Part shown: positions 6,189-25,158 of the stretch, in pieces
Numbering within the stretch: position 1 is the stretch's first letter
Layout of the letters: every line of letters begins with the position of its first letter
Source: a virus
Direction: 5' to 3' (one strand)
Length of the DNA stretch: 64,000 nucleotides
IMG/VR virus record: IMGVR_UViG_3300049460_000128
Coordinates: 1 to 64,000 of that record
Made by a program: the position numbers and the translations under genes
Notes under the pieces: model-generated
Database searches by the model: none
What the model saw: the letters and a program-made list of their open reading frames with translations, nothing else
Told to the model about the DNA's origin: nothing

Positions 6189-6247
6189 ACAAGTGTCTCC
6201 TGTTATTTTCCACCAATATAGCATGATATGGTATTTAGAAGACAAAT

Positions 6248-6275
6248 AAAAAAGCCCGCCGAAGCGAGCTTTTTT
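6248..6275 (-). terminator. Terminator of the tmRNA operon
   Basis: GCTCGC-TTCG-GCGGGC stem flanked by A and T runs. It works for the leftward tmRNA transcript and could also act rightward. Confidence 0.85.
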
Positions 6276-6660
6276 GAGACTTGGATGATGAGGTATGTCT
6301 CTACCCCCACCGTTTAGGCTGCTACAGCCTGACGGAACGAAGAATCGTTTGCATTTACAACGTGCCGACTTTTATTTTCGTGAATCATCGACTTTCACGT
6401 GTTGTCATCTTCGGCTTATTCACCCTGTCGAAACCAGGTCAGGCCCATCATATAAGATTCTCTCGCTTACGTCTCGCGGGATACTGCGCTTTATCCTGAT
6501 AGTGGCCAGCGAAGTTTATCATGCGCTGCTGGTCTAACCTACCGAAAATCTATATGGTGGACCTGTGGGGAATCGAACCCCAGTCCAGAATGCCTCTACG
6601 TCCAAATCTGTCAGTTGCCTGACCACAACAATGTAATGCGCCTATCAGGCGGGGTAAGCC
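6270..6660 (-). ncRNA. ssrA: Circularly permuted (two-piece) tmRNA
   Basis: The tmRNA halves occur in reversed order on the leftward strand. First comes the acceptor piece: T-arm TGGGG-TTCGATT-CCCCA, acceptor strand CAGGTCC (6565-6559), A73 and an encoded CCA ending at 6555. After a 108-nt linker comes the mature 5' end GGGCCTG (6446-6440), which pairs with CAGGTCC over 7 bp (one G-U), followed by the tmRNA signature CCTGGTTTCGACAGGG. The tag frame GCA AAC GAT ... GCC TAA (6352-6314) encodes ANDSSFRQAVAA. The linker ends pair (ATATAGATT with AATCT-ATAT), as expected of a precursor cut to give two pieces. The upstream limit of the acceptor piece (here 6660) is uncertain. tmRNA with SmpB rescues stalled ribosomes and tags products for proteolysis. 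Confidence 0.9.
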
Positions 6661-6984: not shown

Positions 6985-7890
6985 TTAATTCATATGCGAA
7001 TAATCATCTGCCATATGAGTGCGCAGCTTCTTCAAAGCCGCCACCTCAATCTGACGAACACGTTCGCATGAAATATTGTACTTGTCTGCCATCGCCCGCA
7101 ACGGCACACCAGCCCCTTCATCATTTACCAGGAAACGTTGCTCGATGATATACTGCTCGCGTTCGTTCAACTTTTCCATGTACTTCTGGAGGCCGGTTGT
7201 CTGAAGTTCAACCATACGCATACTGGACAATACGTTGGTGGGTTCCAGCGTGTCGTCACTCAGATAATGGTATACGAAGTCATCCATATCAGCACTGTCA
7301 AGGAACTGATTGGTTGGAGGCACATCGATGGAGCTATCACCGCCACGCATACGCATTTCAACTTCACGCACGTCTTCTGGTCTGACCTCCAACGCATCAG
7401 CGGCCCATTTGATCTGTTCTTCGGTCATGCTGCGCCCTACTTCCAAACGACTACGCAGGTTGAAGAACAGCTTGCGATGAGCTTTGGTAGTGAAGCTTTT
7501 CACTATGCGAGAATTGCGAATCACATAGTCCATCATCTCTGCTTTGATCCAGGGAATCGCATAGGTGGCAAAACGCACATTCTGGGCGGGATCGAAGCGA
7601 TGAATTGCTTTCATCATTCCAATACTTCCTTCTTGAACTAGATCATCTTGGCTCATGCCGTAGAATTTCAATTGACGGGCTTGGCTCATGACCAAACGCA
7701 TATAGCTATGAGCCAGTGCGTCAATTGCCTTTTGATCATTGTTTCTCACTCGTACCCACAGCGCATCTTCTTGCGGCGGGGTAAGCATGGGAAACCGCAT
7801 GGCGGTGCTATGGTAATTGTCAATGCTGCTGAGGTTTACCGTAACACCAAGGTTCAATGGCTTATTAATACCAGTAGCGTCAAGTTTCAT
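6985..7890 (-). CDS. RpoH-like (sigma-32 type) RNA polymerase sigma factor
   Basis: A 301-residue sigma-70-family protein. Region 2 covers about residues 55-130 (DLVQEGSIGMMKAIHRFDP, RFATYAIPWIKAEMMDYVIRN). Residues 138-146, HRKLFFNLR, match the RpoH box diagnostic of heat-shock sigma factors of proteobacteria. Region 4.2 helix-turn-helix is at about 265-291 (ISCERVRQIEVAALKKLR). Length is close to E. coli RpoH (284). It would direct RNA polymerase to heat-shock-type promoters. It is transcribed from its own early promoter (7920-7948), and the RNA operon starts within 25 bp of its stop. It is not a gp55-type late factor, which is much shorter. Capture from a host rpoH is the likely origin. 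Confidence 0.9.
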   Translation of the reverse strand: MKLDATGINKPLNLGVTVNLSSIDNYHSTAMRFPMLTPPQEDALWVRVRNNDQKAIDALAHSYMRLVMSQARQLKFYGMSQDDLVQEGSIGMMKAIHRFDPAQNVRFATYAIPWIKAEMMDYVIRNSRIVKSFTTKAHRKLFFNLRSRLEVGRSMTEEQIKWAADALEVRPEDVREVEMRMRGGDSSIDVPPTNQFLDSADMDDFVYHYLSDDTLEPTNVLSSMRMVELQTTGLQKYMEKLNEREQYIIEQRFLVNDEGAGVPLRAMADKYNISCERVRQIEVAALKKLRTHMADDYSHMN

Positions 7891-12555: not shown

Positions 12556-12709
12556 TGGTGGCGAGAGGAGGGGTCGAACCTCCAATGTGCTACACATTGA
12601 CAAATATGCGTGCTCGAGGATCCGGATCCAATTGGCCGCCCTACACTCGTCAACTTAGAACACTCTCCAGCTCATCGGCTGGCGTATCTACCAATTCTAC
12701 TACCCCGCC
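12556..12709 (-). ncRNA. Leu-tRNA-like RNA with extra arm, encoded CCA
   Basis: 5' part is Leu-type: acceptor GGCGGGG, TA, D-stem GTA/TAC with loop GAATTGGTAGA, G26, CCAGC. 3' part: a long variable hairpin AATGTG-TAG-CACATT, T-arm GGAGG-TTCGACC-CCTCC, acceptor TCTCGCC (7 pairs, two G-U), A73, CCA. The anticodon arm closes on a 6-nt loop CGATGA (CCAGC/GCTGG), so no normal anticodon exists. About 60 extra nt follow it, closed by TTGAC/GTCAA. Length 154 nt versus about 87 for tRNA-Leu. Confidence 0.6.
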
Positions 12710-12712
12710 TAA

Positions 12713-13062
12713 AATGTAATGGTGGATGACCGTTGGTGTGCTATTACGCCCAATGCTCAACGGGTCTTGTACGACATCGCGCTTACTCTAATCCCTTTAC
12801 CCTCAGCGCTTACCTAGGGGCCGTTATCCTTCGGCATCCTGTAGTCATGGGCTACGCCCCATAACATGATGACCAATTTCCTGCCAGCTGGGAAATTGTT
12901 GCCATCTTATCGTACAAACTGTACTTGTCCTTCCCCGGTGGATTATGCGCGATGATTGCCACCATCTGAAGCTGGGATCGCTTCCGCCCTTATCCACTTT
13001 GCAACTCTTTAAAGGATGGCTGCTTCTAAGCCCACCTTCCAAAAGTCATCCACCATTACATT
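12713..13062 (-). ncRNA. RNA mimicking the GTPase-associated centre of 23S rRNA
   Basis: Closed by an 18-bp perfect stem (12713-12730 with 13045-13062). Next to it lies the core of 23S helices 42-44 (E. coli about 1051-1108). UUGG/CCAA replaces CCAG/CUGG of H42. H43 carries GGCUUAGAAGCAGCCAUC (13032-13015), identical to E. coli, then UUUAAAGA. H44 carries GCGUAAUAGC (12749-12740) with hexaloop GUAAUA. Pair 1058-1080 changes U-A to G-C and 1056-1082 changes G-U to A-U, so pairing is kept while sequence changes. Some 250 nt of other hairpins (GTGGAT/ATCCAC, AATTTCC/GGAAATT, ATGGG/CCCAT) are inserted in the 5' strand of H44. In ribosomes this domain binds uL11 and contacts EF-G, EF-Tu and RelA. 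A decoy or scaffold role is inference. Confidence 0.8.
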
Positions 13063-20449: not shown

Positions 20450-20475
20450 ATAAAAGCCCACCTGAGTGGGCTCGT
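20450..20475 (-). terminator. Terminator after nrdB
   Basis: GAGCCCACTCAGGTGGGCTTTTATTTT, reading leftward. Confidence 0.75.
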
Positions 20476-20489
20476 AAGGTCAACTAGGA

Positions 20490-21491
20490 TTAGAAATCTT
20501 CGTCAAAGCCAACATCACCACCAATACCGATGCTGTATTCAGCAACTGTACGTTCGAAGAAGTTGGTAACAGCTTGCATGTCTTGCAGTTCCATGAATGG
20601 GAACGGATTCTTGACATTGAAGCGTGGTTTCATACCCAGACGTACCGAGCGAATGTCGGCAATGAATTGCAAGTATTGCTTCATGTCAGTCTTGCTCATG
20701 CCTGCAACACCCAGATCCAAGGCATCTTCTGCGAACTGATATTCGCAATCAATAGCTTCGTCCAACATTTCGTTGACTCGTTGTTCCATGCTGGCATCCC
20801 ACAGATCTGGATACTCTGCACGCACGGTATCAACAATCTCAAATGCAACGTTCATGTGGAACGATTCGTCACGGAATACCCAGTTTGTGCCAGAACCCAG
20901 ACCATGCAACAGGCCACGTGAACGCAGGAAGTACACATACGCGAAGGCGCCGAAGAAGAACATGCCTTCGATAACAGCAGCAAATGCGATGAGGTTCAGC
21001 AAGAACTTACGACGGTCGTCTTCTGTGCGGCATTCGTCAATCTCCATAACACTGTCGATGTATTTGAAGCAGAAGTCAGCTTTCTTTTTGATCGACGGAA
21101 TGTTGTTGATTGCATCAAATGCGGCAGCACGTTCGGATTCGTCTTTGATGTATTCATCTAACAGAGTCAAGTAGAATTGAACGTGCAATTGCTCTTCAAA
21201 CAGTTGACGGCCGTAGTACATACGGGCTTCTGGGGAGTTCACGTGCTTGTACAGACTCAACACCAAGTTGTTGCCCACGATGGTGTCACCGGTAGCAAAG
21301 AATGCTACCAAGCGTTTGATGACGTGGAGCTCGGCTGGGGAAACTTTATCACGCAGGTCAGCAATGTCAGTGCTGAACGAGATCTCTTGAACTGACCAGT
21401 TGTTAGCTTGGGCATTGATGAAGTGTTGATAGAATGCTGGGTATTTCATAGGACGCAACGTTAAGTTGAATCCTGGATCTAAGATGGCCAT
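20490..21491 (-). CDS. nrdB: Ribonucleotide reductase class Ia, beta subunit
   Basis: A 333-residue R2 protein. The di-iron signature is present: FEEQLHVQFY gives Glu, His (E-x-x-H) and the radical tyrosine at the E. coli Y122 position; FRDESFHMNVAFEI gives the second Glu and His. It supplies the tyrosyl radical for NrdA to make dNTPs for phage DNA synthesis. nrdA lies upstream, separated by two unrelated genes (21525-22580) in the same orientation. Length is shorter than E. coli NrdB (376) mainly at the ends. Confidence 0.95.
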   Translation of the reverse strand: MAILDPGFNLTLRPMKYPAFYQHFINAQANNWSVQEISFSTDIADLRDKVSPAELHVIKRLVAFFATGDTIVGNNLVLSLYKHVNSPEARMYYGRQLFEEQLHVQFYLTLLDEYIKDESERAAAFDAINNIPSIKKKADFCFKYIDSVMEIDECRTEDDRRKFLLNLIAFAAVIEGMFFFGAFAYVYFLRSRGLLHGLGSGTNWVFRDESFHMNVAFEIVDTVRAEYPDLWDASMEQRVNEMLDEAIDCEYQFAEDALDLGVAGMSKTDMKQYLQFIADIRSVRLGMKPRFNVKNPFPFMELQDMQAVTNFFERTVAEYSIGIGGDVGFDEDF

Positions 21492-21524: not shown

Positions 21525-22025
21525 TTATTTAGTAAACAGTGTATCGAAGATATCTTCTTCGATTTCATACTCAAGCTCGATTGGTTCCGAGTACTCTCCC
21601 CGCAGGTAAATGGGGAAGTCAGGAACCGGCAAGGTCGAGACGTCGTAGTCTTGGCCAATATCGTAGCTGAGTGAAATGTGTGGTTTGTATTCGTCAAAGT
21701 CGTATGTGGCACCGGCTTCCATTGCTTCTTCGAAGCGTAAGCGCAAGTACGTACTGTCGTAGTGCCACACCAGACAGCGAGCACCGGATGGGGTGTCCCA
21801 GCCCTCAATGATTGAATCGGTAGTGTCTACCGTAATGTCAATCGAGTGGTTGGGTTCAAAGTCATTTACGGGTACCTTGCTGTACACGATTGTGGTGTGA
21901 AAGCCAGGTGACTTGATTGGATTTGGTATATTATAGTCAGCCAGATATTTGGCGATTCTTTGATTTGTTTCGTCATCAAAGTAAGCGGCAACATAGAGGC
22001 CGCTTGATTGTTCTTTGTCACTCAT
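21525..22025 (-). CDS. acb1: Acb1-like anti-CBASS 2H phosphodiesterase
   Basis: A 166-residue 2H-phosphoesterase. HTT at residues 43-45 (PGFHTTIVYSKVP) and HIS at 116-118 (YKPHISLSYD) match the paired catalytic motifs of T4 Acb1 (gp57B), including the N-terminal GLYVAAYFDDETNQRIAKYL and NIPNP segments that I recall from that family. Acb1 cleaves cyclic nucleotide signals of CBASS, stopping abortive infection. It lies within the nrd cluster, which suits early to middle expression. A general RNA-repair 2H enzyme is the alternative. Confidence 0.8.
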   Translation of the reverse strand: MSDKEQSSGLYVAAYFDDETNQRIAKYLADYNIPNPIKSPGFHTTIVYSKVPVNDFEPNHSIDITVDTTDSIIEGWDTPSGARCLVWHYDSTYLRLRFEEAMEAGATYDFDEYKPHISLSYDIGQDYDVSTLPVPDFPIYLRGEYSEPIELEYEIEEDIFDTLFTK

Positions 22026-22034
22026 TAGAGACCC

Positions 22035-22580
22035 TTATTGTTCTTGTTTTAGTCTGAGCAGCATCTGGAATGTCAGATCACATGCCTCATCAAGATCACC
22101 AGTAAGCTCAATCTCCGGAGCTTTCTTCTCGATGGTGTATTGGAGATATTTTTCGTTTGTGAAACCTGGTTCTATACCAACCACCACATTTTTGTGGCCT
22201 TCTTCGCCAATGATTTCACCCAATTCAAACAACGTAGTCAGGCAATAGTTACGCTTGGTGTCAACTGTTTTATTTGCCAGCCATGCCAACTTAACGCCTT
22301 TGCCGCCTGCTCGTGCGATGTGAATATGTTCCCAATCCACCTGTTGATAAAAGGTGTCATCGTCAAAGTCTTTCAAGTCTTTGAACTGTGGTTGTCGGGG
22401 ATTGAATACTACCAATTCCAAGTCTGATGAATCTTGCTGTGCCAGAAACTCCAGACGATTCTTGGCGTATTCTTGCCATTCCCAAGTCCCCAGGATGGGT
22501 CCAATAAGGAATACCGAATATGCGTTGGCGGTATGGGTTGGTTGGAAGTTTGGTGCGTCTACAAAGTAAATTTTTGCCAT
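22035..22580 (-). CDS. Nucleoside 2-deoxyribosyltransferase-like protein
   Basis: A 181-residue protein. AYSVFLIGPILGTWEWQEYA is the nucleotide-binding loop of the Nuc_deoxyrib_tr2 family, followed by VVFNPRQPQF, FYQQVDWEHIHIARA and TTLFELGEIIG with a Glu in the usual catalytic position. The family transfers deoxyribose between bases, or hydrolyses related nucleosides. With nrdA and nrdB around it, a role in the nucleotide pool or DNA modification is likely. A late-type motif GCTAAATA lies at 22613-22620. Confidence 0.75.
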   Translation of the reverse strand: MAKIYFVDAPNFQPTHTANAYSVFLIGPILGTWEWQEYAKNRLEFLAQQDSSDLELVVFNPRQPQFKDLKDFDDDTFYQQVDWEHIHIARAGGKGVKLAWLANKTVDTKRNYCLTTLFELGEIIGEEGHKNVVVGIEPGFTNEKYLQYTIEKKAPEIELTGDLDEACDLTFQMLLRLKQEQ

Positions 22581-22626
22581 ATTGTTTCTCTCTCAGTGTC
22601 ACTATACTAAAATATTTAGCTCACTC

Positions 22627-22659
22627 AAAATAAAAGCCACCCGAAGGTGGCTCTTTTTT
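22627..22659. terminator. Terminator after nrdA
   Basis: AGCCACC-TTCG-GGTGGCT with T-runs on both sides. Confidence 0.85.
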
Positions 22660-22673
22660 AACTTGCCATCAGA

Positions 22674-25112
22674 TCAAGTGCAGGATTCGCAGATTTCTGG
22701 ATTCTCTGGTGCCTGTTGAACCTGGTTTTCAGTTGCAGCAGTTACCTTGTTGATCTTCGTTGCCGAACGACCACGCAGGTAGTAGGTAGTCTTCAGACCT
22801 TTGCCCCATGCGTACATGTACATGGAACTCAGAACGGCAATACGACGATCTTCCGCAAATTTGTTCAGATCCATGAACAGGTTCAGGGATTGACTTTGGT
22901 CGATGTATGCACCACGTGCAGCAGCATGATCGATGACCACTTTCTGTGGAACTTCCCATACAGTTTTGTACAGTGCGTACAGCTCGGCTGGCAGGTCAGG
23001 AACAGTGGTCAGGCTACCTTCGCTCAGTTTCAGCTGATTGATGGTGTCTTGATTCCAACGACCCAATTTGATCAGATCTTGAACCAGATACTTGTTCACA
23101 GAAACAAACTCACCCGACAGAGTTTCGCGCTTCAGCAGATTGCTCTTCTGAACTTCGATACACTCTTCAGCACCAGTAATTGCCGCGATAGTTACCGTTG
23201 GAGCGATAGCAATCATGAGGCTGTTGCGCAGACCATACTTGGCGATCTCTGCTTTCAAGGCATCCCAACGAGTGGTATCGGATGGAGTAACACCCCACAG
23301 GTCGAATTGCAGTTGACCCTTAGCCGCATGTGTGTGCTCGAAGTCGCGGTGTGGACCGTGTACCTTAGCCAGTTCGCATGAGGTTTTCAAAGCCTGGTAG
23401 TAGATCTCTTCCTGAACTTGTGCCGATAATGCGATCGCTTCTGGGCTTTCAACAGGCAGACGCAGTTGGAAGAACAGATCAGCCAGACCCATCAGACCCA
23501 AGCCAACTGGACGCAGACGTGCATTCGAGGCTTTTGCTTCTGGTACTGGGTAGAAGTTACGATCAATAACACGATCCAGGTATTTCATAGCAGTAGCGAC
23601 ATTCTTGTGCAGCTTGGTAATATCCAGTTTGCCATTTTTCAGGTAACCACGACCAATATTGATCGATCCCAGATTGCACACTGCCACTTCACTACCCTGG
23701 ATTGCCTCGACGTCAAACGAGTCAGGGTTCAAACCAATCACGTTGATGTTACGTTCTACTACTTCCTGTGGAGTCAAGCGCATAAGCTCTTCTCGTGTCA
23801 GGGTGACGTATTTACCGCTTGCTGTAGGCTCGATGATCTCCGTGCAGAGATTCGAGAGGTGAACTACACTACCATTCACTGCACTGTTGCACAGCTGATT
23901 GGAGCGATCTTTGAAGCACATCCAGCCATTACCGGTCTCAGCCAAGGTCTTCATCATACGAGCAAAGATTTTTTGGGCTGGCATCTGTTCATGGTACATC
24001 TTTGCTTCTTCCAGCTCCAAATAGCGAGCCTTGTAAGCATCACCGAACAGGTCGGTCAGCTCTGGTGCAACCGCTGGATCGAACAGACTCCACATTGCAC
24101 CATCTTTCACACGTTCCATGAACAGGTCAGGAACCCAGTTAGCCAAGTTCAAGTTGTAGGCACGCTTCTCTTTCTCGCCCACGTTGTCGCGCAGTTGCAG
24201 GAAGTCCAGGATATCCGGGTGATGCGTTTCCAAGTACACGCAAGCCGCACCTTTACGTTTACCGCCTTGGTTAACTGCCACGATCGAACCCGACAGTTTG
24301 TGCAGCCAAGGGATGACGCCGTTGGATTTGCCATTTGTGCCTTTGATCAATGAACCGCTCGAACGAACGCGCGAGTACGAGAAGCCAATACCACCAGCGA
24401 ACTTACTCAAACGTGCCATGTCTTGGGTACGTTTGTAGATATCACGCAGGTCATCCATTGGCGAATCCAACAGGTAGCATGACGACATCTGGCTGTGTAC
24501 TGTGCCGCTGTTGAACAGGGTAGGCGACGAGTTCATGTACTCCAGGCTTGACAGCAGGTTGTACATTTCAATCACTTCAACGGCATTGTCAGCCAAACCA
24601 GCAGCGACGCGCATGAAGAAATATTGTGGGGTTTCGAACACTTGGCGGTTGGTTGGATGCTTCAACAGGTAGCGATCGTATACGGTTTTAATGCCGTAGT
24701 ATTCGAACAGTTGATCACGTTCTGGCTTGATAGCCGCATTCAGCTTGCGCTTGTTTGCTTGAACGAGGTCCAGGGTTGCTTGACTGATCAGACCGTTGTC
24801 GTAACCAAATTGGATAGACTGGCTGAACGACTCAACGCCTTGTGCTGCGACTTCCTTGGCAACAAAGTTGCTTTGCAGGATGGTGGTCACTTTGTGGAAG
24901 ATAGGATCTTCCAATGCGAAACCCAGGGCAGTTTGGATCGACAACAGATCCAGTTCGCGAGTGCTAACACCGTCATACAGCCCACCTACGGTTTTAATTG
25001 CGATTTTGGTGTAGTCAATCTCACCGAGGTCACCGCAAACTCGTTTCAAACTACCAACGATCTTATCCAGGTTTACTGGTTCAAGTTCACCATTACGTTT
25101 TTTTACGTGCAT
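22674..25112 (-). CDS. nrdA: Ribonucleotide reductase class Ia, alpha subunit
   Basis: An 812-residue R1 protein. Residues 1-90 form an ATP-cone (MHVKKRNGELEPVNLDKIV). The body has NSSPTLFNSGT, MSSCYLLDSPMDDL with the active-site Cys, NLCTEI, and IAPTVTIAAITGAEECIE. The C-terminus CESCT keeps the mobile Cys pair re-reduced by thioredoxin or glutaredoxin. It reduces ribonucleoside diphosphates with NrdB. An exact TATAAATA late motif lies 40 bp upstream (25151-25158). Full length for the family. Confidence 0.95.
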   Translation of the reverse strand: MHVKKRNGELEPVNLDKIVGSLKRVCGDLGEIDYTKIAIKTVGGLYDGVSTRELDLLSIQTALGFALEDPIFHKVTTILQSNFVAKEVAAQGVESFSQSIQFGYDNGLISQATLDLVQANKRKLNAAIKPERDQLFEYYGIKTVYDRYLLKHPTNRQVFETPQYFFMRVAAGLADNAVEVIEMYNLLSSLEYMNSSPTLFNSGTVHSQMSSCYLLDSPMDDLRDIYKRTQDMARLSKFAGGIGFSYSRVRSSGSLIKGTNGKSNGVIPWLHKLSGSIVAVNQGGKRKGAACVYLETHHPDILDFLQLRDNVGEKEKRAYNLNLANWVPDLFMERVKDGAMWSLFDPAVAPELTDLFGDAYKARYLELEEAKMYHEQMPAQKIFARMMKTLAETGNGWMCFKDRSNQLCNSAVNGSVVHLSNLCTEIIEPTASGKYVTLTREELMRLTPQEVVERNINVIGLNPDSFDVEAIQGSEVAVCNLGSINIGRGYLKNGKLDITKLHKNVATAMKYLDRVIDRNFYPVPEAKASNARLRPVGLGLMGLADLFFQLRLPVESPEAIALSAQVQEEIYYQALKTSCELAKVHGPHRDFEHTHAAKGQLQFDLWGVTPSDTTRWDALKAEIAKYGLRNSLMIAIAPTVTIAAITGAEECIEVQKSNLLKRETLSGEFVSVNKYLVQDLIKLGRWNQDTINQLKLSEGSLTTVPDLPAELYALYKTVWEVPQKVVIDHAAARGAYIDQSQSLNLFMDLNKFAEDRRIAVLSSMYMYAWGKGLKTTYYLRGRSATKINKVTAATENQVQQAPENPEICESCT

Positions 25113-25150: not shown

Positions 25151-25158
25151 TATTTATA
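25151..25158 (-). promoter_or_regulatory. T4-type late promoter motif, exact TATAAATA
   Basis: Matches the T4 late consensus exactly and lies just upstream of nrdA, overlapping the end of the gene at 25154-25606. Confidence 0.6.

Follow-up and report, generated by a model that had tools for sequence, protein, structure and literature searches.

The window analyzed here is a stretch of 64,000 nucleotides from a virus record of 296,594 bases, which represents a T4-like phage with one copy of Acb1. In the region of interest, an acb1 gene lies between nrdB and nrdA, the genes for the small and large subunits of a class I RNR, as the first-pass annotation had placed it. A further gene that was absent from that annotation, a PF15891 deoxyribosyltransferase-like (DRT-like) ORF, is located between acb1 and nrdA. 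The genes of the locus and the candidate transcription signals around them are listed in Table 1.

Table 1. Genes and candidate transcription signals at the acb1 locus (window coordinates)
Feature	Position	Strand	Evidence or remark
intrinsic terminator after nrdB	20454..20473	-	
nrdB, class I RNR small subunit	20490..21491	-	PF00268, E 1.8e-79; 33 bp downstream of acb1
acb1, Acb1-family 2H phosphoesterase	21525..22025	-	Pfam, PHROG, PDB sequence, T4 residue mapping
ACTAAATA motif over acb1 stop codon	21526..21533	-	34 bp before nrdB; possible separate nrdB promoter
PF15891 nucleoside 2-deoxyribosyltransferase-like (DRT-like) gene	22035..22580	-	E 2.1e-9; 9 bp upstream of acb1
sigma70-like promoter candidate TTGAGT-16-TATAGT	22601..22628	-	consensus match only
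T4-late-like GCTAAATA inside the sigma70-like candidate	22613	-	32 bp before DRT start codon; consensus match only
intrinsic terminator, nrdA vs DRT-acb1-nrdB group	22632..22655	-	fold -20.9 kcal/mol, z -3.8
nrdA, class I RNR large subunit	22674..25112	-	PF02867, E 6e-175; upstream of DRT-acb1-nrdB group
TATAAATA late-promoter-like motif	25151..25158	-	38 bp before nrdA

Three features elsewhere in the window were also recorded. A permuted tmRNA of the betaproteobacterial type (6223-6647, minus strand) has the tag ANDSSFRQAVAA, and this type of phage-encoded tmRNA suggests a betaproteobacterial host. An Rfam tRNA match over 151 bases (12559-12709, minus strand) was not found by ARAGORN and is possibly an interrupted tRNA. 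At 13004-13041, 37-38 bases are nearly identical to a stretch without annotated features in the Pseudomonas phages pf16 and UNO-G1W1.

The acb1 gene is a stand-alone ORF of 166 amino acids with its own ATG start and its own stop, and not a Pam3-type fusion to a structural protein. The sole Pfam family assigned to it was Acb1 (PF23474; E 5.6e-36), which scored 123.9 bits (cut-off 27) and was covered at profile positions 2-142 of 144. It also matches PHROG 755 (E 6.5e-39), a family labeled as RNA ligase, which is the name given to 57B in the T4 record as well. In the PDB sequence search, the crystallized Acb1 of Erwinia phage FBB1 was matched (7t26; E 1.9e-22), and the Pam3 portal protein only weakly, through its 2H domain; a profile built from 19 relatives reached FBB1 Acb1 at 4.2e-51 together with other Acb1 entries. 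Neither acb1 nor the DRT-like gene had a match in NCBIfam or PADLOC, and no credible match was obtained for the DRT-like protein in the PDB sequence search. Using tblastn, we found matches to acb1 in 1432 phage records, and comparison of the genes from two relatives (L016 and L018) indicated purifying selection (dN 0.107, dS 1.22, dN/dS about 0.09). These records and this selection, together with the Pfam score and the PHROG 755 match, place the ORF far beyond chance. Pfam, PHROGs, the PDB sequence match and the residue-by-residue comparison all give good support to the Acb1 identity proposed in the first-pass annotation; judged by its sequence, the protein is soundly identified as an ordinary member of an established enzyme family, encoded here in a genomic context that is new.

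The closest known systems are T4 Acb1 (57B) and FBB1 Acb1 (7t26/7t27), which share with the window protein the family, the size range, the layout of catalytic His and Thr residues and the ligand-contact positions. The identity to both is about 39%, and the window protein differs in having HIS for HIT, Tyr for Trp in the lid and a C-terminal extension. The two 2H motifs reported previously were recovered at residues 43-45 (HTT) and 116-118 (HIS). The catalytic residues of T4 Acb1 are H44, T46, H113 and T115, and its ligand contacts are Y12, W74, F107, W147 and E141 (Hobbs et al., PMC9117128). In the alignment with the T4 and FBB1 proteins, the catalytic histidines correspond to H43 and H116, and of the hydroxyls two residues past each histidine, the first is kept (T46 to T45) and the second is a serine (T115 to S118). 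The contact positions map to Y11, W76, F110, E147 and, in place of W147, Y153; by the T4 mapping, the aromatic residues W76, Y11, F110 and Y153 are nucleobase-stacking and E147 is the adenine-reading glutamate. Thus, seven of the nine mapped residues are identical to those of T4 Acb1, and the two substitutions, threonine to serine and tryptophan to tyrosine, are conservative.

An Acb1-like 2H domain with H-x-T/S motifs in common with the window protein is also found in the Pam3 portal protein (PDB 8hds) and in ORFs of the L169 and L170 loci. Those domains lie within larger proteins, such as the 497-residue protein of L169, or form a more divergent branch, unlike the stand-alone protein of 166 residues described here. 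In L169 (1459-2952), the domain is at the start of the protein and is akin to those of L170, L174 and the Pam3 portal.

The LigT/ThpR and CPDase RNA phosphodiesterases belong to the same 2H superfamily as Acb1, and the protein might instead be a phosphoesterase from this broader LigT/CPDase group, with RNA ends that bear a 2',3'-cyclic phosphate or some other small nucleotide as its substrate and no role in antagonizing CBASS. Such a role would agree with the RNA ligase label of PHROG 755 and with the name 'putative RNA 2',3'-cyclic phosphodiesterase' in some of the phage records matched by tblastn; distant 2H families also match 4 to 8 of the 19 family members weakly. However, none of the LigT, CPDase and 2'-5' RNA ligase families (PF02834, PF13563, PF07823, including 2_5_RNA_ligase2) matched acb1 at E <= 1, the profile of the 19 relatives found Acb1 structures and no RNA phosphodiesterase in the PDB, and the Acb1-specific contact residues are kept. 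The first-pass annotation had named a closer structural match to RNA 2',3'-phosphodiesterases as evidence against its proposal; at the sequence level, no LigT-type family or solved structure was matched. We consider a LigT/CPDase-type enzyme highly improbable.

The substrate deserves more caution. FBB1 Acb1 has a lid that closes over the ligand, whereas the C-terminal lid of the window protein is divergent; in the clade formed by this protein and its relatives from loci L015-L018, sequence divergence is greatest in the lid region, and therefore the exact substrate range could differ from that of T4 Acb1. Since the protein departs from T4 Acb1 both in the lid and at the second catalytic hydroxyl, the Acb1 fold may have shifted to another substrate, for example the cyclic oligoadenylates used in type III CRISPR or some other molecule made by a CD-NTase. 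The T115 to S118 and W147 to Tyr replacements point in this direction, as does the C-terminus of the L015-L018 proteins, which is shortened or Trp-free and has no Trp at the lid position. Against it, the other base- and phosphate-contacting positions (Y11, W76, F110, E147) are conserved, and the serine is found in other clear family members, such as L015 and L019. A shifted substrate appears unlikely to us.

Our preferred reading is that acb1 encodes an active Acb1-family anti-CBASS nuclease, probably expressed from a DRT-acb1-nrdB message and carried as accessory cargo in the nrdA-nrdB gap of a T4-like jumbo phage; on the comparative evidence we hold this to be very probable, even though the HIS second motif and the divergent lid with Tyr for W147 count against it. 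Its substrates would be those 3'3' cyclic di- and trinucleotides from host CD-NTases that contain adenosine. Once bound, their ring would be opened on the 3' side of adenosine by 2H acid-base catalysis without a metal, in which H43/T45 and H116/S118 would act through a cyclic phosphate intermediate. With the signal cleaved, the CBASS effectors would stay off, to the presumed benefit of the phage. Within the family, T4 Acb1 and nine other members have been assayed, and every one of them cleaved 3'3'-cGAMP and cAAA (PMC9117128).

The first-pass annotation had also proposed that anti-defense and nucleotide genes are co-expressed at this locus. This agrees with the common strand and short gaps of the DRT-like gene, acb1 and nrdB, but a strong terminator and new promoter-like sites part acb1 from nrdA. 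A single nrdA-DRT-acb1-nrdB operon was rejected as the default arrangement, as the terminator at 22632-22655 intervenes. The motif TAAATA, which resembles the T4 late promoter TATAAATA, precedes each of nrdA, the DRT-acb1 pair and nrdB; like the sigma70-like candidate, these sites are consensus matches only. In its [AC]TAAATA form, it occurs in 16 of 75 upstream regions of window genes, compared with 5 on the antisense strand and a mean of 2.1 (maximum 6) after shuffling. The enrichment is observed 10-80 bp before genes, with sites at, for example, 25151, 22613, 21526, 30230 and 37842. Among the phage genes is one for a sigma factor (6985-7890). For sigma70-like sites taken together, the region shows no enrichment (9 found vs 18 expected). 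No TAAATA was found directly before acb1 in any of the seven genomes examined. Because of this absence, the overlap of the acb1 start with the nrdA stop in L015 (ATGA) and the abutment or overlap of acb1 with the preceding ORF in L016-L018, transcription of acb1 probably begins at a promoter farther upstream. Its message in the window would then start upstream of the DRT-like gene to give a DRT-acb1-nrdB unit, with nrdA probably forming a separate transcription unit that may share its timing.

At least five further phage contigs also have acb1 in the nrdA-nrdB slot (L015-L018, L091 and L132). All are from uncultured phages in IMG/VR and have the gene order of the window and the most similar nrdB genes. 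L015-L018 have the order nrdA-(ORF)-acb1-nrdB, with identities to the window proteins of 71-74% for nrdA, 68-78% for nrdB and 45-51% for acb1, and their acb1 genes form a supported clade with that of the window (99/89). The 424-kb contig L091 has the DRT-acb1-nrdB order of the window, including a DRT-like gene in the same place (55% identity), and L132 has acb1-nrdB only, without nrdA upstream. The neighbor of acb1 in the slot varies, being a PF15891 gene in the window and L091, an ORF of 90-101 amino acids in L016-L018, and none in L015. Among the matches listed, no phage with a name had a close relative of nrdA (best about 40%, versus 71-74% in L015-L018). The nrdA gene of L015 (1408-4034) is divided in two near residue 413 by a stretch of about 197 bp with a stop, where no Rfam intron was matched; the arrangement is reminiscent of phage Aeh1, whose NrdA is split yet functional (PMC2988022).

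Among 45 loci with the same type of nrdB, the nrdA-nrdB gap ranges from 5 to 2005 bp where both genes are present, and is below 30 bp in some relatives. It contains acb1, a PRA-PH/MazG-like gene (L103), HNH endonuclease genes (L105, L122), an MT-A70 methyltransferase (L131), genes for unknown proteins, or nothing. The surveyed gaps of L090-L133 and L165 have variable cargo, of which that in L097-L099 looks like one family. Four related genomes (G003, G004, G007 and G015) retain a single acb1-like gene elsewhere, in a divergent version in G003, G004 and G015, and the presence of acb1 in the slot requires 2-3 changes on the nrdB tree. Given the variable contents, the acb1-like genes elsewhere and these changes, we regard the gap, from the gene orders compared, as a cargo site and acb1 as not a fixed member of the RNR operon. 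The variability of the slot among relatives also led us to reject a strict linkage of acb1 to RNR alone.

The same three observations favor, by a modest margin in our judgment, an nrd position without functional meaning, the gap being a tolerated insertion site; this concerns location only and is compatible with an Acb1 enzyme. Two facts speak against a neutral location. The acb1 gene of G007, located about 14 kb from nrdB, overlaps a DHFR gene (locus L172), and acb1 adjoins DNA-precursor genes in three of its lineages, namely dNMP kinase (gp1, the T4 type), DHFR and RNR. In T4, as the first-pass annotation noted, the gene is elsewhere: 57B comes after gene 1 (dNMP kinase) and 57A, whereas the window acb1 is between nrdA and nrdB, and the T4 gene 1 protein used as a query (from its database record) had a weak match about 52 kb away. 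This T4-type arrangement beside gene 1 accounts for 37 of the 80 distinct proteins in the acb1 tree. Outside the nrd clade, DHFR lies within 3 kb of acb1 in 19 of 35 other loci, and within 300 bp in 11 of these; Pfam confirmed DHFR in 7 of the 34 neighboring genes scanned. Loci with DHFR within 3 kb, often adjoining, in a large acb1 lineage distinct from that of T4 are L001, L003, L005, L020, L022, L033, L039, L046, L055, L058, L059, L061, L064, L082, L085, L086 and L172.

A PF15891 gene was observed beside acb1 in two separate acb1 lineages, one represented by the window (22035-22580) and L091 (2860-3405), the other by L082 (6001-6486), where the order is DHFR-acb1-PF15891. The DRT-like gene might have a role in nucleotide salvage or counter-defense.

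As related phages are not independent and nucleotide genes cluster in phages anyway, the gene neighborhoods are only suggestive of a functional link between acb1 and DNA-precursor genes. We found no published description of this linkage in the literature searched. The linkage fits the published but unproven idea of folate or nucleotide disturbance as a trigger of CBASS, in which the cyclase DncV is hypothesized to respond to interference of the phage with folate metabolism (PMC10653837), and the report that ATP inhibits a CBASS cyclase (CD-NTase) (PMC13424991). Conceivably, precursor synthesis disturbs folate or nucleotide pools that are sensed by some CD-NTases, and phages co-deploy the enzyme that destroys the resulting signal, so that the placement of acb1 would reflect its function; we rate this idea as rather doubtful.

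With the present analysis, the phages that carry Acb1 come to include an uncultured clade of T4-like jumbo phages. In this clade and its relatives, the cargo of the nrdA-nrdB gap varies, and further counter-defense genes could be sought there. The recurrent proximity of acb1 to DNA-precursor genes offers a concrete way to test whether folate or nucleotide disturbance triggers CBASS, and may indicate what sets off the alarm.
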